Virus record (IMG/VR): IMGVR_UViG_3300045118_000311
Location: 1 to 37,854 of that record
Direction: 5' to 3' (one strand)
DNA: 37,854 bases
Origin: a virus
The number at the start of each line of letters is the position of its first letter. Position 1 is the first letter of the stretch. Below, in pieces: positions 5,392 to 35,285 of the stretch. Position numbers and translations under genes: made by a program. The notes beneath the pieces were generated by a model. It had not been told where the DNA came from and did not search any database. It worked only from the letters and a program-made list of their open reading frames with translations.

Positions 5392-7113
5392 TTAAATACT
5401 ATCCTGCCATAGTTCCACTTTTTTTTCTTCAAATTCATCTTTGAAGGTACCCCGGTTGAAAAATACAGTTGTTTCAGCCCATTGTCCAAACCCCCTGTCT
5501 TTAGGTTGGACTATCATAAACTTTGCATTCTCTTCTATGGTAGCATCTTGGCTGTATGTTCTGAAACAAGCGAATACATTATCAGCGTTGTGTGCTATCT
5601 TTGCGCTTCCCCTCATTACTTCGAGTGGATTAGCTTTTTTTTCTTTGTCCCCAATTTTTCCGAAGTGATGCAATACCACAATTGGTATATTTATTTCCTT
5701 TGCAATCTGTGAAAGCATTTTTGAGATCCTGTTTTGCTCAACATATTCTTTGTTGTCATCCTTGTGTATCAAATCAAAATTGTCTATAAATAACAGATCT
5801 GGATTATATTCTGATACTACTTTAAATATATTGTCAAGCGTAGTTTCGATATCTTTGGGAAAACCAGTTAACAAAAGTGTTTTTATCTCTTTAATTTCAT
5901 TTTTCTTTTCTCGGTATAATTCTTTTTTATAATCTGGTATCATCCGTTTATCACGCCATTCGTTTTTGCGTATTCCGGCGTATGATCTTGAAATCCTCGT
6001 GAGTATTTCATCTGCTGTCATTTCAAGTGAGAGAAATAAAACCTTATGTCCATTGTGTGCATTTTTTATGGCAACGTCAAAACAAAAAGCTGTCTTCCCG
6101 GTACCTGTTCCTCCGACCAGGATGGTTATTTCGCCTCTCTGTAGTGGACTTAATTCATTGTCTAAAACTTCGGTACCCCAAGTGTACGGGATATCTTCAA
6201 CCAGTGAAATTACATCTTTGCCCGAGTATTCTGGAGTCAAGATCTTTTTTATGTCAATCTTTTTTTTAATTCCTGCCATCTCTTTCAGCCATTCGATGGC
6301 TTCTTTCAAATCCTTTTTACCATAGATCATAACTGCATCAATCGTGCTTCCGCTCCCAGGTTTACCGCTAAATCTATTAATGTAATTCTCTTTCACATTT
6401 ACGCTGGCACTTGTTGTCTGGCCATTCTCAATTATAAAATGGGTTGGTGTAAGTTGTACTCCTAGCTTATCGAGGACTTGTTTAATAGGAATATCTTTTA
6501 TAATAGATATATCGTCGTTTTTTAGATTATGTTTTTTTACAAACTTTTCCATGGGTGGCGTATATGGGAATGCTTGTATCATATCTTCTGGAGATTCTTT
6601 TATGAAATCAAATTTTATTATCTTCACTAAAAATTTATCTATTGGGTCTTTAACGTGATAAAATCCAGGAAATCGCAAAACTTCATTCTTCGAACTAATA
6701 GCAGGGTCGCCATCAAAAAAATCAAGTAGTCCGTTTATGATACTCTTGAATTGAGCATCTGTGCATTCCACATTCCAGTAAAGATGATAGCTTCTTTTGC
6801 TTTCAATTATCATGCCGGGTTGTATTGGTGCTTTTTTAATCTTTTCCAGTTGTTCAGGTTTGGAAGCATTATCCATATCAACATATACCCACTGGATTGA
6901 GATAACGTCTTTTTCTTTGCGGCCATTTTTACACGGGTTTGGTGTGAAAAAAATACCTGCACCTGCCGCGTTTTTTTCTTTTAGAAAATCGTATTTGGAA
7001 TCAAAATCGCTCATCGGGAATTGTAGGGTGTATCCAAATCTACCCTTTTTTTCATCATCGAAAGTCAAGATGTAACTGTCCTTGAAAACTTCTTTAAATT
7101 TTGTTATTTCCAT
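5392..7113 (-). CDS. Primase-polymerase (AEP/RepB-type) fused to RecA/DnaB-like helicase
   Basis: 573 residues, two enzymes in one chain. Residues about 1-175 are an archaeo-eukaryotic-type primase: D79 and D81 in VYVDMD, then IIESKRSYHLYW with H110, and LRFPGFYHVKDP, as in RepB-like PrimPols. Residues about 197-282 resemble a DnaG-type zinc domain that has lost its cysteines (INRFSGKPGSGSTIDAVM, then EAIEWLKEMAG). Residues about 300-573 are a RecA-fold ATPase: Walker A GGTGTGKT (334-341), LSLEM after it, Walker B LLFIDNFD (D444), and PIVVLHHFGK. The protein would unwind and prime phage DNA. The start overlaps the replisome-organiser stop by 10 nt. Confidence 0.88.
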   Translation of the reverse strand: MEITKFKEVFKDSYILTFDDEKKGRFGYTLQFPMSDFDSKYDFLKEKNAAGAGIFFTPNPCKNGRKEKDVISIQWVYVDMDNASKPEQLEKIKKAPIQPGMIIESKRSYHLYWNVECTDAQFKSIINGLLDFFDGDPAISSKNEVLRFPGFYHVKDPIDKFLVKIIKFDFIKESPEDMIQAFPYTPPMEKFVKKHNLKNDDISIIKDIPIKQVLDKLGVQLTPTHFIIENGQTTSASVNVKENYINRFSGKPGSGSTIDAVMIYGKKDLKEAIEWLKEMAGIKKKIDIKKILTPEYSGKDVISLVEDIPYTWGTEVLDNELSPLQRGEITILVGGTGTGKTAFCFDVAIKNAHNGHKVLFLSLEMTADEILTRISRSYAGIRKNEWRDKRMIPDYKKELYREKKNEIKEIKTLLLTGFPKDIETTLDNIFKVVSEYNPDLLFIDNFDLIHKDDNKEYVEQNRISKMLSQIAKEINIPIVVLHHFGKIGDKEKKANPLEVMRGSAKIAHNADNVFACFRTYSQDATIEENAKFMIVQPKDRGFGQWAETTVFFNRGTFKDEFEEKKVELWQDSI

Positions 7114-7916
7114 AAATTATTCTTTGCTACAAATGCTATGTATCTTAAAGAATCTGCACGTTCGAGTGCAGTTCTCCATTTTTTACCTTTATCCCACATC
7201 TCCAACCATTCCTGATCTGTTGCCTTCTTAATTTTTTCTTTTGGCCATATGGGGTCAGCTCGATTAAGCCACATCCGGACAGCACTTGGATAATCTTTGT
7301 ATGTCTTGCCAGTTGATTTAATCCATAGGTTCATCTCGTCGATTATCTTGTCGACATTGGCCTGCCCGAAATCGTCGCATATTTTTGAGTATTCAATTAT
7401 GGGCATCTTCACATAATCGTCATCCCTCGCGCGCGCGCGCGCGTAGAGAGAGTGAGAAGAATTCTTATCATTATTATTATCTTTATATATATTGTCTGCC
7501 ATTTTGGCAGTGTCCACACTGCCATTTTGGCAGTATCCGGCTGTCAATTTGGCAGTACCACTGCCATTTTGGCAGCCAAAGTTGTTTTTTCCTGATAAGA
7601 AAGCCGTTTCTTTGCCTTTGAACCCGATAATCCAGTCGTCTTTGTTGGCGATCATTTCGTTGAAATTGTCCAAAGTTTTAACGTATCCGGTTGATTCGTC
7701 TCTTGTTATCAGTTCTTTTAATTCTAGGGTTTTTAGTGTGCGATAAATTACTCTTTCGCTTAGATCTAAAACTTCTGCAAGTTTTCGTTTACTCATTATG
7801 CACCAGTGCCCGTAAGTTTGATTGTTTGAAAGGTGGTAAATTGTATCTAAAACCACGTATTCTTCTACTGAAAGACAAAGCGCTTTCCTAATTGGATGAA
7901 TTATGGTTGTGTACAT
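7104..7916 (-). CDS. Replisome organiser / initiator (lambda O-like), origin within the gene
   Basis: 270 residues. Residues about 15-90 are a winged helix (MSKRKLAEVLDLSERVIYRT, TLELKELITRDESTGYV). Residues about 114-160 are low complexity and are encoded by the iterons. The C-terminal third has the phage initiator pattern DEMNLWIKSTGKTYKDYPSA, followed by RMWLNRAD, which in relatives recruits the helicase. It heads the leftward operon and overlaps the helicase-primase gene, as O precedes P in lambda. The inserted segment with four palindromic iterons and an AT-rich tract mirrors the position of the lambda origin inside O. Protein-level similarity to O itself is not claimed. Confidence 0.82.
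   Translation of the reverse strand: MYTTIIHPIRKALCLSVEEYVVLDTIYHLSNNQTYGHWCIMSKRKLAEVLDLSERVIYRTLKTLELKELITRDESTGYVKTLDNFNEMIANKDDWIIGFKGKETAFLSGKNNFGCQNGSGTAKLTAGYCQNGSVDTAKMADNIYKDNNNDKNSSHSLYARARARDDDYVKMPIIEYSKICDDFGQANVDKIIDEMNLWIKSTGKTYKDYPSAVRMWLNRADPIWPKEKIKKATDQEWLEMWDKGKKWRTALERADSLRYIAFVAKNNLWK
7428..7494. other. AT-rich unwinding tract and (CG)8 run beside the iterons
   Basis: Immediately left of the iterons, 7461-7494 is almost pure A/T (for example TTATTATTATCTTTATATAT), a likely DNA unwinding element. Beyond it, 7428-7443 is an uninterrupted (CG)8, an alternating tract prone to Z-DNA, encoding the RARARAR stretch of the initiator. Order: CG tract, AT tract, iterons. Confidence 0.55.
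7496..7575. repeat. Four palindromic iterons, candidate replication origin
   Basis: CTGCCATTTTGGCAG occurs at 7496-7510, 7519-7533 and 7561-7575, with a variant CTGTCAATTTGGCAG at 7541-7555. Each is a dyad with 6-bp arms CTGCCA/TGGCAG and a 3-bp centre. Start-to-start spacing is 23, 22 and 20 bp, about two helical turns. The copies fall in two different reading frames of the host gene (encoding CQNGS twice and TAKM/TAKL once each), so the repeat is conserved as DNA and not as protein. Confidence 0.8.
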
Positions 7917-8816: not shown

Positions 8817-9057
8817 TCTTAATATCAGATTAACTAGACGTGATTGCCGGAAGGGATTCCATTTGTGGAAGGTTGTTGATGATGATGAGCAGGTAACTAT
8901 TGAAGAGTGTGAAGTGTGTGGTATGAGGATGGGATACAACAAGGTTGGTGGTAAGGTTGATCCCCGTAAATGGGCGGCTAATCATAAGCTAGATTTGCTT
9001 CAACCGTTTGGTAAGACTGCGAGAGATTTTAATAAATATTATGCGATTGACAGGTGA
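8806..9057 (+). CDS. Small zinc-binding candidate, 83 aa
   Basis: Contains C35-x2-C38 (ECEVCGM) plus C14 and several histidines that could complete a site, then a basic segment (GGKVDPRKWAANHKL). Function unknown. It starts inside the end of the upstream gene and ends 17 nt inside the small-terminase candidate, so the three genes are translationally coupled. Confidence 0.65.
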   Translation: MLADLNIRLTRRDCRKGFHLWKVVDDDEQVTIEECEVCGMRMGYNKVGGKVDPRKWAANHKLDLLQPFGKTARDFNKYYAIDR

Positions 9058-9682
9058 GAAAAAATATAAGGCGCGTGTGGCTGTTGCTAACAAGGAGCGC
9101 GAAAAAAGGAAAAGAAAATTGTATGTTGGTTTAGAGAAGGTTATGAAGGACCCAGATTCTGCGTTCAATAAATGCACGCTTAAACAACAGGGTTTTATCA
9201 GAAGCCACGTTCTTGAAGGAAAGACAAAACATCAAGCGGCGCTTGAAAATTACAATCTTAATAGTGATAATTCTGCGCGTGCGGCTGGCGGTGTTATTGC
9301 TAATTATCCGAAGGTCAAACTCGCGATCCGGGAAATTTATGACAATATGGGAATTACTGATGAATATTTGACGCAGGTTATGCAAAGAGGGCTTGAGGCA
9401 AAGAAGGAGGTTTTTATGAGGGGTGAGGGGCTAGTTCAGTCTGATATTCCTGATTGTAAAATACAGCTTGAATTTCTAAAGTTTGCGCACGAGGTGAAGG
9501 GAGATGTTAGACCTCGTGTTGGCGTGCCTGATTCTGGGGGCGGCATTGACGTTCACATCCCGGCTGGTGTTGTAGGTAGTGATGAGGTTGAACACGCTGT
9601 TCAAATTGTTTTGAAAAAGAAATTTAAACGCAAGGGTGATGCTAATAAGGTTGACATTGTGGATGGTGCTGTGGTACAGTGA
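9041..9682 (+). CDS. Terminase small subunit candidate
   Basis: 213 residues from ATG 9041; an upstream TTG at 9008 would deepen the overlap with the previous gene and is less likely. The centre resembles small terminases: LKQQGFIRSHVLEGKTKHQA, the helix AALENYNL followed by SARAAGGVIANYPKVKLAIR, then GITDEYLTQVMQRGLEAKKE and DCKIQLEFLKFAHEVKGDV. This is the HTH-plus-helical arrangement of proteins that recognise the packaging site and recruit the large subunit. The C-terminus is basic. The large subunit is 2.7 kb away, beyond a leftward cassette, which is unusual. Confidence 0.65.
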   Translation: MRLTGEKKYKARVAVANKEREKRKRKLYVGLEKVMKDPDSAFNKCTLKQQGFIRSHVLEGKTKHQAALENYNLNSDNSARAAGGVIANYPKVKLAIREIYDNMGITDEYLTQVMQRGLEAKKEVFMRGEGLVQSDIPDCKIQLEFLKFAHEVKGDVRPRVGVPDSGGGIDVHIPAGVVGSDEVEHAVQIVLKKKFKRKGDANKVDIVDGAVVQ

Positions 9683-11358: not shown

Positions 11359-11383
11359 AAGGCGAGGGACAGTCAATCGCCTT
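11359..11383. other. Hairpin presenting a GACAGTCA site in its loop
   Basis: AAGGCGA (11359-11365) and TCGCCTT (11377-11383) form a perfect 7-bp stem. The 11-nt loop contains GACAGTCA (11368-11375), an outlying copy of the array motif. A pyrimidine-rich run follows. Confidence 0.55.
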
Positions 11384-11636: not shown

Positions 11637-11664
11637 GGGGGGTATGGGGGGGTTTAGGGGTGGG
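11637..11664 (+). other. G-quadruplex motif
   Basis: Four G-runs of 6, 7, 4 and 3 with loops TAT, TTTA and T satisfy the standard intramolecular G4 pattern on the plus strand, in an otherwise AT-rich region, 55 bp before the GACAGTCA array. Confidence 0.7.
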
Positions 11665-11719
11665 CATTTTTTTCGCCACTCCTGTCCCACCAGATATATT
11701 TTTTTCTAAATTCGCCTAG

Positions 11720-12093
11720 TGACAGTCAGTATCGACAGTCACTATTTAACAGGAGTGAGTGTGTATCGACAGTCACTATTTCTTGACAATGACAGTCACT
11801 TAGGAGTATAAAGTGACAGTCAGTGACAGTCATAACAAAATTGAAAATGGAATTAAAAACGGTTAGTCAACGCGAGTTCCAGAGGCATTTTCACAGATAT
11901 AAAGGTGAAAATGTAGTGGTAGTAAGTCAGGGGATTGTGATAGGGGAATGGAGGCCATTTATTGACAGTCAAGTGACAGTCAATAGTGACAGTCACCTAT
12001 CAGGTTTGAGCGACAGTCAACGACAGTCAGCAGCAGTCAGTGACAGTCAAGTGACAGTCAGTGGTGACAGTCATCCAAAAAGGGTGACAGTCA
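11720..12093 (+). repeat. Array of 15 palindromic TGACAGTCA sites
   Basis: GACAGTCA occurs 15 times, all in one orientation: 11 as TGACAGTCA (11720, 11790, 11814, 11824, 11963, 11974, 11987, 12041, 12052, 12065, 12085) and 4 as CGACAGTCA (11733, 11767, 12011, 12021). TGAC-A-GTCA is a dyad around one base. Apart from a 139-bp gap the spacings are 10-13, 20-24 and one of 34 bp. GTATCGACAGTCACTATTT is repeated exactly at 11729 and 11763. The right half lies inside a coding region and uses all three reading frames. Confidence 0.92.
11783..11812 (+). promoter_or_regulatory. Rightward promoter embedded in the GACAGTCA array
   Basis: TTGACA (11783-11788) and TATAAA (11807-11812) are 18 bp apart. 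One TGACAGTCA lies in the spacer (11790), one at the expected start site (11814) and one just upstream (11767), the layout of a repressible promoter. It would transcribe the Phd-like/zinc gene and the terminase-structural operon. Confidence 0.6.
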
Positions 12094-12401
12094 ATACTCC
12101 AAAAGGTGTGCAAAATGACGGCATTGCTAACAATGAAAATCAAGTGGACAGTGATGGGCATTTATTGTGTAGTAACTGTAAAAGGTATTGTGCGATGCGT
12201 AGTGGATTATGTATGGCGTGTGAGAGAGATAAGCCTGGGCCTGGGATAAGGTGTATGAAGTGCAATATGTATAAGGTGAAGGGGATATATGAGTGGTGGG
12301 AGGATGGAGAGGAGTATCCTGTATGTGAGGAATGTTTAAGGAGGGTGATACCGAGGAGTCATTGGAAGAGCAGGGTAGGGAAGTTAAAAAAACTTTGTTA
12401 G
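11847..12401 (+). CDS. Phd-like N-terminal domain joined to a double zinc ribbon
   Basis: 184 residues from ATG 11847, which has TAAC 14 nt upstream; a GTG at 11823 is possible but falls at the expected transcription start. Residues 1-38 (KTVSQREFQRHFHRYKG, VVVVSQGIVIGEWRPF) look like the Phd/YefM antitoxin fold, which binds palindromic operators. Residues about 40-85 are low complexity and encoded by the GACAGTCA array. The C-terminal half carries CSNC/CMAC (108, 111, 122, 125) and CMKC/CEEC (136, 139, 160, 163), two zinc sites. It lies 2 nt before the large terminase. I infer a DNA-binding autoregulator or packaging accessory; no toxin partner is visible. Confidence 0.7.
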   Translation: MELKTVSQREFQRHFHRYKGENVVVVSQGIVIGEWRPFIDSQVTVNSDSHLSGLSDSQRQSAAVSDSQVTVSGDSHPKRVTVNTPKGVQNDGIANNENQVDSDGHLLCSNCKRYCAMRSGLCMACERDKPGPGIRCMKCNMYKVKGIYEWWEDGEEYPVCEECLRRVIPRSHWKSRVGKLKKLC

Positions 12402-12403
12402 GT

Positions 12404-14008
12404 ATGGGAAAGATTGAAGAAAGCGTATTGGGTTGGATAATAGCGAACGGGATAAAGAATGAGAGGGGGGATCTTGTGGAGTTTGACGAGCATTATTTTT
12501 TATTGGAGCCATTTGGTGATTGGAATCCGAAGCAGGTATGTATGAAGAGTGCGCAGGTGGGGTGGAGTACACTAGCGATATTAAAGACGTTATATGGGTT
12601 AACGAAGAGGAAGTTGAACTGTATTTACACGTTACCGGCATTTGATGATGTGCATGATTTTGTACCTGCAAAGGTGGACGGGATGGTGACACAGAATCCT
12701 GTTTTGGCGGCGTTATTGGGAAAGAGTGATGCGGTAACGAAGAAGGAATTTGGGGGGAATTTCATATGGTACAGGGGGACGCACGGGAAGAAGGCGGCGA
12801 TAATGCACACGAGTGATTTGAATTGTTATGATGAATATGATGCTAGTAATATAGAGGTAATAGATTTATATGCTTCCAGGTTGCAGAGGAGTAAGTATAA
12901 GGGTGAGTGGATGTTCAGCAATCCTATCAGGCCTGGCGGAATAGATCAGAGATATGAGATGAGTGATCAGAAACATTGGATGATCAGGTGCAGTGCGTGT
13001 AACAAATGGCAGAAATTGGATTATTTTGAGAATGTGGATAAGGTAAAGGGGATATACATTTGTTCTAATTGTGGGAAAGAATTAAGTGAAGATGACAGGC
13101 ATGATGGTGAATGGGTAACGACGTATAAGGATAGGGAAATACACGGGTATCACGTGAATCAGTTGATGTGTAGTTGGGTAAAAGCGGCAGACTTGGTGTA
13201 TTTGGAGAGGACCAAGGGGCCACACTATTTTTATAATATGGTATTGGGGTTGCCATATGTGGAAAAAGATGATGTAGTAGATAGGTTGTTGATAGAGAAG
13301 AATATATTGGCGGACACTAATCCGATGCTAAGGAATGCAATGGGTGTGGACGTAGCGTATAAGGATCTGCATTATGTGTTGGGGAATCACGCAGGGGTAT
13401 TCAAGGTGGGAATAGCGAAGAGTTGGTCAGAGATTGAACAGATGATGAGGAAATATGATCCTGTAACAGTCATAGACGCTAACCCAGATTTCTATCCTAG
13501 AAGAATTTTGATGCCCAAATATCCGGGGAAAGTGTTTTGTAGTTTCTATAGACAGAATTTTAAGAGGAAAGAACTGTTCGAATGGGGCAAAGATACCCAA
13601 AGAGGATATGTTTATACAGATAGATCGCAAGCAATAAGCGCAGTAGTGAATGATTTCACTGATGGGAAGATACTTTTCACCACAAATGGGCGGCTTCCGC
13701 AATCCTTTTTAAATAGTGAGCTTGCATTATATGTCAAACATTGGGAAAATATATATCGGATAATAAAGGAGGATTCATTTGGGATACCGCATACGAGTTG
13801 GGAGAAGAGTGGGGAGGATCACTTCGTGCACGCTACGGTGTATTATAAGATGGCATTGGAGCGAGTACCTAGACTTGAGAATAGCATATATGATAGGATA
13901 GGGCCTGGTGGATTCTACAATCCGACAATAGAGGGTGATGGGATACCGGCAGACAAGATACCTATATTATCGGAGGAGGTGGATCCAGATGCATGGATTT
14001 ACGTATAA
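12404..14008 (+). CDS. terL: Terminase large subunit (GpA-like)
   Basis: ATP-driven DNA packaging motor and nuclease. 534 residues from ATG 12404, 2 nt after the preceding stop; an upstream in-frame ATG at 12332 lies inside the previous gene. The ATPase has a variant Walker A (K48-SAQVGWS) as in lambda gpA-type terminases and a Walker B ending CYDEYD (about 141-146). A zinc knuckle CSAC/CSNC (196-223) follows. The nuclease part begins near MGVDVAYKD, with further acidic residues in TVIDANPDFYP and SGEDHFVHA. The first kilobase favours AGG, ATA, GGG and GTG codons more than later genes. Confidence 0.9.
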   Translation: MGKIEESVLGWIIANGIKNERGDLVEFDEHYFLLEPFGDWNPKQVCMKSAQVGWSTLAILKTLYGLTKRKLNCIYTLPAFDDVHDFVPAKVDGMVTQNPVLAALLGKSDAVTKKEFGGNFIWYRGTHGKKAAIMHTSDLNCYDEYDASNIEVIDLYASRLQRSKYKGEWMFSNPIRPGGIDQRYEMSDQKHWMIRCSACNKWQKLDYFENVDKVKGIYICSNCGKELSEDDRHDGEWVTTYKDREIHGYHVNQLMCSWVKAADLVYLERTKGPHYFYNMVLGLPYVEKDDVVDRLLIEKNILADTNPMLRNAMGVDVAYKDLHYVLGNHAGVFKVGIAKSWSEIEQMMRKYDPVTVIDANPDFYPRRILMPKYPGKVFCSFYRQNFKRKELFEWGKDTQRGYVYTDRSQAISAVVNDFTDGKILFTTNGRLPQSFLNSELALYVKHWENIYRIIKEDSFGIPHTSWEKSGEDHFVHATVYYKMALERVPRLENSIYDRIGPGGFYNPTIEGDGIPADKIPILSEEVDPDAWIYV

Positions 14009-16906: not shown

Positions 16907-17959
16907 ATGACTTTCGATGAGTTTGTGACCACGGTGACTCAAGATGAGATTTTGCCTGTTGTTACAGATACAGTGCTAAGATCAAATGTCTTGACACTAA
17001 GGTTGCTTGGTAATCCAAAAGCCTGGAATGGTGAAAATATGAAGTTCCCAATCAAATATGCTTCTTCTACAAGTGGAGGTTCATTTGATGGATTTGATGT
17101 ATTTTCAACAGTTAAACCTGATACTCGTGTTAATATGCAGTTCTATCCAAAAGCGTATTATCAATCAGTTGTTCTCTCTAATATGGAGGCGGCTGTTAAT
17201 CAGGGGAAGGCTCGTGTTCTCGATCTAATTAAGACTGAAATGGATTCCGCTAAAGATGATATGGCGGATGGAATTGGTACTCTTATGTACGGTTTAGGCA
17301 CAGGTAATGGTGGAAAAGACTTTACTGGACTTGGTGCTGCTGTAGATGATGGTACTGCTGTTGCGGTTTATGGTGGATTGAATAGAGCTGTTTATACAAC
17401 AATTCAATCTACAAAAACAAACCTTGCAGGTAATTTGACATTGGCTGCTATGGCAACAATGTACAATGCTTGTGCGGTTGGAGCCGACAGGCCCACATTA
17501 ATTGTTTGTAATGAAACTGTTTGGAGCTATTATGAGACATTGCTTCAACCTACAGTAGTTGCAAACTATGATGCTGGCGGGTTTGCTCAGGTTACGAAAA
17601 ATGGAATCGCTGCTACAAGAGGAGCTTTGAATGGAGAAATCGGATTCGATGCTCTATTCTTCCGAGGTACTCCTGTAGTACGTGATGAGAAATGTACAGC
17701 TCAATATATGTATTTCTTGAATGAGAAGTACCTTAGTTGGTATGCTCTACCTCACCCAGATAATCAAAAGGCGGAAGGGAGAGGAAGTGCGATTGATGGA
17801 GCATATACAACTCAGGGAGATGTCCCTGTAATGAGTTGGACAGGATTTAAAGTTCCTGTCAATCAGGATGCTAAAATCGGTCAGTTTATTCTTTACGGAG
17901 ATCTTGTTAATCGAAACTGCAATCGATCAGGCGTTCTTATCGGTATAACCGGTGTATAA
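16907..17959 (+). CDS. Major capsid protein (HK97 fold expected)
   Basis: 350 residues, a normal size. The sequence has the capsid pattern: an N-terminal helix, GENMKFPIKYASST and FDVFSTVKPDTRVNMQFYPK of the E-loop, a long spine helix at SNMEAAVNQGKARVLDLIKT, P-domain and A-domain strands, and a C-terminal MSWTGFKVPVNQDAKIGQF followed by GDLV. It follows the scaffold gene and TAACC lies 13 nt before the start. It would be the most abundant virion protein and a likely GroEL client. Confidence 0.88.
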   Translation: MTFDEFVTTVTQDEILPVVTDTVLRSNVLTLRLLGNPKAWNGENMKFPIKYASSTSGGSFDGFDVFSTVKPDTRVNMQFYPKAYYQSVVLSNMEAAVNQGKARVLDLIKTEMDSAKDDMADGIGTLMYGLGTGNGGKDFTGLGAAVDDGTAVAVYGGLNRAVYTTIQSTKTNLAGNLTLAAMATMYNACAVGADRPTLIVCNETVWSYYETLLQPTVVANYDAGGFAQVTKNGIAATRGALNGEIGFDALFFRGTPVVRDEKCTAQYMYFLNEKYLSWYALPHPDNQKAEGRGSAIDGAYTTQGDVPVMSWTGFKVPVNQDAKIGQFILYGDLVNRNCNRSGVLIGITGV

Positions 17960-34187: not shown

Positions 34188-35285
34188 ATGTCAAAAAAAG
34201 AAAGTCTTACGTTTAGTGATATCGAACAATCACTAAGATTGAATCCGGCTCTTAAAGATCCCATGGATCAGAGAGATTATAGTTTCATTGAAACGGCAAA
34301 TAATGTAGTGGGAGCAATTGATTTGCCTAAGATGTATTCGTTAAGAGCAAAATGTTCACCTGTTAAGAACCAGGGCAGCAGAGGTACTTGTGTTGGATTT
34401 GGGTCTACAGGAGTATCAGAGTTTTTCAATAGAGCTGAAATGGATGATAAGTTTCTCAATCTATCAGAAGAGTTTTTATTCAGGAAAATCAAGGATATTG
34501 ATATAAAGGATTACAACTATTCTGGATATGGTGCTTATATCAGAAGTGGGGCGAAAGCATTGAGAGGATTCGGAACCTGTCCTGAGTCAAGATTACCATA
34601 CAATTTTTATGGATCGGAAGATTCTTGGAAGAATGTAGAGATTACTCCTGTTATGGAAGCAGAGGCTAAACTGTTTAGAGTAAAGAATTACTTTTCAGTA
34701 GCTTGCAATAAAGAAGAGATTAAAAAAGCTTTAGTTGTTTCAAAAGGTCCATTAATAGCAGCATTCAGTCTTTATGAGAGTTATAGACAAGCAAAGAAGA
34801 ATGGTGGTTTTATCCTTGTACCAAAGGCTAAAGAAAAGAAAATAGGAGGGCATTGCATGGAAATAGTGGGATACAATGATAAGTATATGGAATTGAAAAA
34901 CAGTTGGGGATCTGCATGGGGTAATAATGGATACATATGGTGGCCATGGGAAGCTCTTGACAAGGTGTCTTCTATATGGAGTTTTATTGATCTTGAGAAT
35001 CCGGAGATGCAAAAACATTTTATAGCATTACAAAAAGGTCAGACTAAGTTTTCTTTCAAGAAGATATTAAAGAAAATCTGGAAGTCAAAAAGAATAAGAT
35101 CTTTAATATGGAGAGCTGCAATGATGTTCCTAGGCATTGTAACTGCCATTGCTGCAAATATGCTTCTAGATTTACAGATTGAAAGGAGTAGTTGGAAAGC
35201 AAGTCTTGTACTTTTCTGGGGATTGGTATTAGGAGAAGTGTCAAAGGCAATCAATAACAAGTATCAGGGAAAGGATACTATTTAA
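34188..35285 (+). CDS. Papain-like (C1A) cysteine peptidase with two C-terminal membrane helices
   Basis: 365 residues. The catalytic set of papain-like peptidases is intact: Q62 and C68 in VKNQGSRGTCVGFGS, H222 in GGHCMEIVGYND and N238 in LKNSWGSAWGNNGY. After about residue 290 comes a basic linker (FSFKKILKKIWKSKRIRS), then helices at about 308-327 (AAMMFLGIVTAIAANMLLDL) and 337-353. No signal peptide is evident at the N-terminus. It is the last gene of the structural operon, where lysis genes often lie. It could act as an envelope-degrading or maturation peptidase anchored in the membrane. Its last 8 nt overlap the convergent gene. Confidence 0.85.
   Translation: MSKKESLTFSDIEQSLRLNPALKDPMDQRDYSFIETANNVVGAIDLPKMYSLRAKCSPVKNQGSRGTCVGFGSTGVSEFFNRAEMDDKFLNLSEEFLFRKIKDIDIKDYNYSGYGAYIRSGAKALRGFGTCPESRLPYNFYGSEDSWKNVEITPVMEAEAKLFRVKNYFSVACNKEEIKKALVVSKGPLIAAFSLYESYRQAKKNGGFILVPKAKEKKIGGHCMEIVGYNDKYMELKNSWGSAWGNNGYIWWPWEALDKVSSIWSFIDLENPEMQKHFIALQKGQTKFSFKKILKKIWKSKRIRSLIWRAAMMFLGIVTAIAANMLLDLQIERSSWKASLVLFWGLVLGEVSKAINNKYQGKDTI

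Follow-up and report, generated by a model that had tools for sequence, protein, structure and literature searches.

Why should a phage carry, just before its terminase large subunit gene (terL), fifteen copies of one short palindrome that run from a promoter into the codons of a small gene? The question is raised by the IMG/VR virus record IMGVR_UViG_3300045118_000311, which was analysed in its whole length (37,854 bases, referred to below as the window). The eight-base core GACAGTCA occurs in it 16 times, always on the + strand, against an expectation of 0.85 and a maximum of 3 in 100 shuffles; 15 of these copies are clustered at 11721-12093, and the sixteenth lies isolated at 11368-11375 (+). 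We consider it probable, although well short of certain, that this array serves as operator to a toxin-less Phd-like autorepressor, encoded by the 184-amino-acid gene which the array enters (11847-12401, +), and that it controls the terminase and structural operon.

The base before the core is T in 11 of the 15 clustered copies, which gives the full palindrome TGACAGTCA, and C in the other 4, while an A stands three bases 5' of the core in 13 of them. The steps between successive sites are 13, 34, 23, 24, 10, (139), 11, 13, 24, 10, 20, 11, 13 and 20, the bracketed one dividing the array into two parts. Six sites make up the upstream part (11720-11832, +), as read directly: 11720-11728, 11733-11741 and 11767-11775 (the latter two with C first), then 11790-11798, 11814-11822 and 11824-11832. 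Six sites 5' of the start codon ATG 11847 compare with a mean of 0.009 and a maximum of 1 after shuffling. The motif count confirms the original prediction of fifteen copies in a single orientation, and the sites are likewise head-to-tail in one direction in three related phage loci, L024, L056 and L273.

The in-gene part (11963-12093, +) holds nine sites distributed over three reading frames, being read as DSQ/DSH five times, as VTV three times and as RQS once. The expected number of in-gene copies is 0.06 when the codon order is shuffled, 0.29 when the protein is back-translated with phage codon usage and 2.98 under synonymous permutation, and in none of 5000 trials of each kind were nine copies reached. 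Since no shuffle, permutation or back-translation gives the observed number, the earlier suggestion that selection within the gene acts on the DNA word, and that the peptide is not what is kept, is supported. Direct reading also bears out that the 33-bp block at 11963-11995 recurs at 12041-12073 with two changes, and local duplication therefore contributed to the array. This duplication might be taken as a sign of a selfish or merely amplified short repeat that has no function, and so might a scan of bacterial genomes for three copies of TGACAGTCA, which returned 62 stretches, mostly regular short tandem repeats, none of them matched by a profile of the Phd-like family. We find such an explanation very unlikely, as the flanks differ between most copies while all 15 share the 8-bp core without change (as the search definition implies), and as a related layout is built with another palindrome in L273.

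A strong sigma-70-like promoter element can be read directly at 11783-11812 (+), with TTGACA at 11783-11788, an 18-bp spacer and TATAAA at 11807-11812; a consensus promoter scan, which demands T as the last base of the -10 box, omitted it. One array site (11790-11798) is inside the spacer and two (11814-11822 and 11824-11832) directly follow the -10 box, at the expected transcription start, so that the overlap with the promoter and the position just before terL were both rightly recognised in the original prediction. The open reading frame (ORF) listed for terL opens at 12332, and comparison with L197, the nearest terL relative found, points to ATG 12404, past the stop of the small gene, as the likely start; the gene (12404-14008, +) matches phrog_675 (E 9e-82) and PF05876 (E 2e-18). 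Between 12404 and 35285 the large ORFs all have + orientation, and the promoter would therefore read into the terminase and structural genes and may be the main late promoter. A further gene, at 34188-35285, encodes a papain-family cysteine protease (PF00112, E 1e-17).

The product of the small gene is predicted to consist of a Phd/YefM-like N-terminal domain (residues 1-37, codons at 11847-11957, +), a disordered linker and a cysteine-rich C-terminus. It was modelled by AlphaFold2 from the single sequence, because MAFFT misaligned it against the family; pLDDT is about 82-85 for residues 1-30 and below 50 for residues 38-108, and the nine in-gene sites lie within codons 39-83, inside this predicted disordered linker. 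The predicted order of the domain is beta-alpha-alpha-beta-beta (strand 3-7, helices 8-13 and 15-18, strands 22-27 and 30-35). Among the PDB matches of the N-terminal part are the antitoxin domains 6jqy, 2odk and 9w3a, YefM with DNA (6l8e) and P1 Phd alone (4zlx) and with its operator (4zm0). The top structure match of the window model is an antitoxin N-terminal domain (probability 0.99), and the best antitoxin matches reach probabilities of 0.99-1.00 with weak E-values for the window and L273 models. The fifteen best Foldseek matches of the L273 model, made from a five-sequence alignment, are all antitoxin structures, including the Phd-operator complexes 4zm0 and 4zm2. With modest scores and small models, a Phd/YefM-type DNA-binding fold of the N-terminus is a supported prediction and not a proof. 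Zinc-domain matches of the C-terminus were set aside, that region being modelled at low confidence.

Phd/YefM antitoxins repress their own promoters via palindromes, and those of YefM, one of which overlaps the -10 box, are built on a TGTACA core; the arginines R10 and R31 are required for YefM to bind DNA (PMC4803016). As in P1 phd-doc and E. coli yefM-yoeB, the palindromes to which the window protein is predicted to bind overlap its own promoter (in the spacer and after the -10 box), and, as in the antitoxins, a disordered segment follows the domain. Unlike in these systems, no toxin gene adjoins: in the window, L056 and L110 terL follows directly, and in L024 a small HNH-like-looking ORF does. 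The nine in-gene sites in three frames and the extra cysteine-rich C-terminus are further differences. We suggest that the protein would act as a repressor without a toxin partner, binding TGACAGTCA as a dimer via its N-terminal domain. On the spacer and start sites it would block the 11783-11812 promoter, which would drive the repressor gene itself, terL and the structural genes, and the result would be negative autoregulation of the operon. The nine sites in the linker codons may add binding capacity, probably as a transcription roadblock or as the base of a longer protein-DNA complex.

Viral contigs were scanned for paired TGACAGTCA and for a control palindrome of equal composition. Pairs of TGACAGTCA were found no more than 1.5 kb upstream of terL in 8 of 95 loci (about six independent) and the control in 2 of 74 (one independent). 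In the uncultured phages L024, L056 and L048/L110, the sites are in or around a small gene upstream of terL, the N-terminus of whose product resembles the window protein. The first site of L056 overlaps the -35 box TTGACA (186-191) and the second overlaps both the end of the -10 box TATTAT and the ATG. In L273, found among the TerL relatives of L056, terL is 87% identical and the small gene is of the same type, and another palindrome, TGTAGTTACA, is present in six copies whose positions correspond: they occupy, among others, the spacer of the promoter (-35 at 550, sites at 557 and 576), the start codon and three positions within the gene. The L273 half-sites TGTA/TACA resemble the YefM core (PMC4803016).

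These comparisons split the motif from the terminase: L056 and L024 have TGACAGTCA in common, with N-terminal domains 57% identical and TerL only 27% identical, whereas L056 and L273 share TerL at 87%, have domains 34% identical and differ in their palindromes. The palindrome thus appears to go with the small Phd-like protein and not with the terminase, although few lineages stand behind this, and we see here the main argument in favour of an operator and against a terminase-bound site. Further arguments for it are that the window, L056 and L273 each have sites on a consensus promoter, that the nine sites of the window gene fall within the predicted disordered linker and that TGACAGTCA pairs upstream of terL exceed the control. 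Of the four roles originally suggested (operator, packaging site, partition site, replication iterons), the operator is thereby the best supported. The position just after the beginning of helix 1 is R in four TGACAGTCA proteins (RQLQR, RQLDR, REFQR) and Q in L273 (RQFQQ), a single-case hint that this residue may bear on the choice between TGACAGTCA and TGTAGTTACA. Pairs of the L056/L273 type offer a natural experiment on how the Phd/YefM fold comes to read another DNA word.

With terS (9008-9682, weak phrog_641/51 match) on one side and terL on the other, the array is placed as phage pac and cos sites may be, and it could be a packaging site of a pac or cosB-like kind, bound at the start of packaging by the small terminase or by the Phd-like protein in the role of a terminase partner. 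This would agree with the clusters of the motif that precede terL in about six independent contigs, and also with a G-run block, GGGGGGTATGGGGGGGTTTAGGGGTGGGC, 55 bp upstream of the array (11637-11665, +), which is a possible cleavage-site mark and candidate packaging-site component. However, a pac or cos sequence should be conserved with its terminase, and this motif is common to phages with unrelated terminases, is missing from L197 and differs between phages whose TerL proteins are 84-87% identical and between phages with TerS ends 74% identical; nor does packaging have a need for sites that overlap a promoter. A packaging role is for these reasons unlikely in our view, yet the G-run block is common to L197.

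The last comparison is that of L273 with L275. In the latter the left flank is partly conserved and is followed by three copies of TGATACGCTA at the promoter of another small gene, whose product is cysteine-rich. The TerS C-termini of the two are 74% identical (43 residues) and the repeats differ, and TerS was dropped as a reader of the motif. The G-run block corresponds to positions 63-91 of L197, also upstream of terL, with GGGGGTATGGGGGGG...GGGTGGGC common to both. An 18-bp inverted repeat (11431-11448/11581-11598, 94% complementary, arms 132 nt apart) is found in the noncoding stretch before the array.

A replication origin should also be considered, with the direct repeats of the gene bound by an initiator, in the way that lambda O binds within its own gene. 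As with iterons of the lambda O type, there are repeats inside the gene of their presumed binding protein; all copies are head-to-tail, and GACAGTCAC arrays are found inside the replication-initiator-like genes of many other phages. On the other side, the spacing is irregular, the array-bearing gene has no replication-protein match in Pfam and PHROGs scans, and the array is neither in nor beside the initiator-like gene of the window (7104-7916, -). Because the latter holds its own, different in-gene palindromes, four of the CTGCCATTTTGGCAG type at 7496-7580 (CTGCCATTTTGGCAG as read on the + strand, one copy being CTGTCAATTTGGCAG), iterons are an improbable explanation of the array. The initiator-like gene also contains a (CG)n run, and 7496-7580 is a candidate replication origin.

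Arrays of the GACAGTCAC type are found within the genes of about 17 distinct phage proteins, many of which have a replication-initiator-like N-terminus (L003, L006, L010, L012, L014, L015, L027, L033, L035, L038, L042, L068, L114 and others). These arrays shortly follow a basic stretch (AARKRRQRAK, NRLRKQRQRD, NRDRQRECRARKK) which resembles the bZIP basic region; bZIP proteins read TGAC half-sites.

Partition sites, too, have as their general layout multi-copy repeats that extend over the promoter of a small DNA-binding protein, and the array might serve as a centromere, as the multi-repeat sites of small repressors doubling as centromere-binding proteins do. We think this hardly probable at all, given that no ParA-like ATPase was recognised among the scanned proteins (about a dozen ORFs) and that the motif sits at terL in several phages.

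Several observations weigh against the autorepressor operator that we prefer. A symmetric operator has no use for sites that all point one way; the head-to-tail order could have come about by duplication, or could mean that the centre is read asymmetrically or that roadblocks depend on direction. Classical Phd/YefM operators have two palindromes and the window has fifteen sites; L024 and L110 carry in-gene sites only. The family was detected in only five lineages, and the profile E-value of the window protein is circular, since the search profile contained its sequence. Structure scores are low in absolute terms (best Foldseek E 0.21 for the window; Phd-type chains at Z of 4.5 or less), and unrelated zinc domains score similarly as structure matches of the C-terminus. 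Unlike true Phd/YefM proteins, those of the window, L024, L056, L110 and L273 have no Phd/YefM match in Pfam, and PHROGs fails to recognise the family too; when the window, L024 and L273 proteins were searched against phage and plasmid proteins, no usable match emerged.

The distribution of the array is uneven. The original prediction expected the cluster to recur at the same place in close relatives; here the result is mixed, as L197, the one close terL relative found, has neither array nor small gene, yet both are present in several phages that are less related. Among the sixty-odd terL relatives of L056, L110 and L024 most are devoid of any array, and the cassette is therefore sporadic. No such array precedes terL in the best capsid relatives, MG269973 and MW202566. 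L310, a terminase relative, has an array of another motif at a similar place, GTAACAC/GTAACAG repeats before terS (about 1466-1575).

We may tentatively go further, to a proposal that we hold to be possible but rather doubtful: a family of toxin-less Phd-like repressors would have become established in the terS-terL interval of diverse phages, most of them uncultured, with a multi-site operator in the linker codons and a palindrome that switches with the protein, as an exchangeable specificity cassette which controls the late genes and perhaps excludes related phages. If true, the Phd/YefM fold would have a use beyond toxin-antitoxin pairs, in the control of the packaging and structural genes of phages, and operator sites would be written in several frames into the codons of the repressor's own disordered linker. 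Within the terms used, no description of such an element was found in the open-access literature; the matches to the motif letters, among those listed, looked unrelated by title and were mostly eukaryotic or medical. As for the host, the major capsid protein (16907-17959) is 38% identical over its full length to that of the TM7 phage DolZOral124_53_65, and because of this resemblance a Patescibacteria host is possible.
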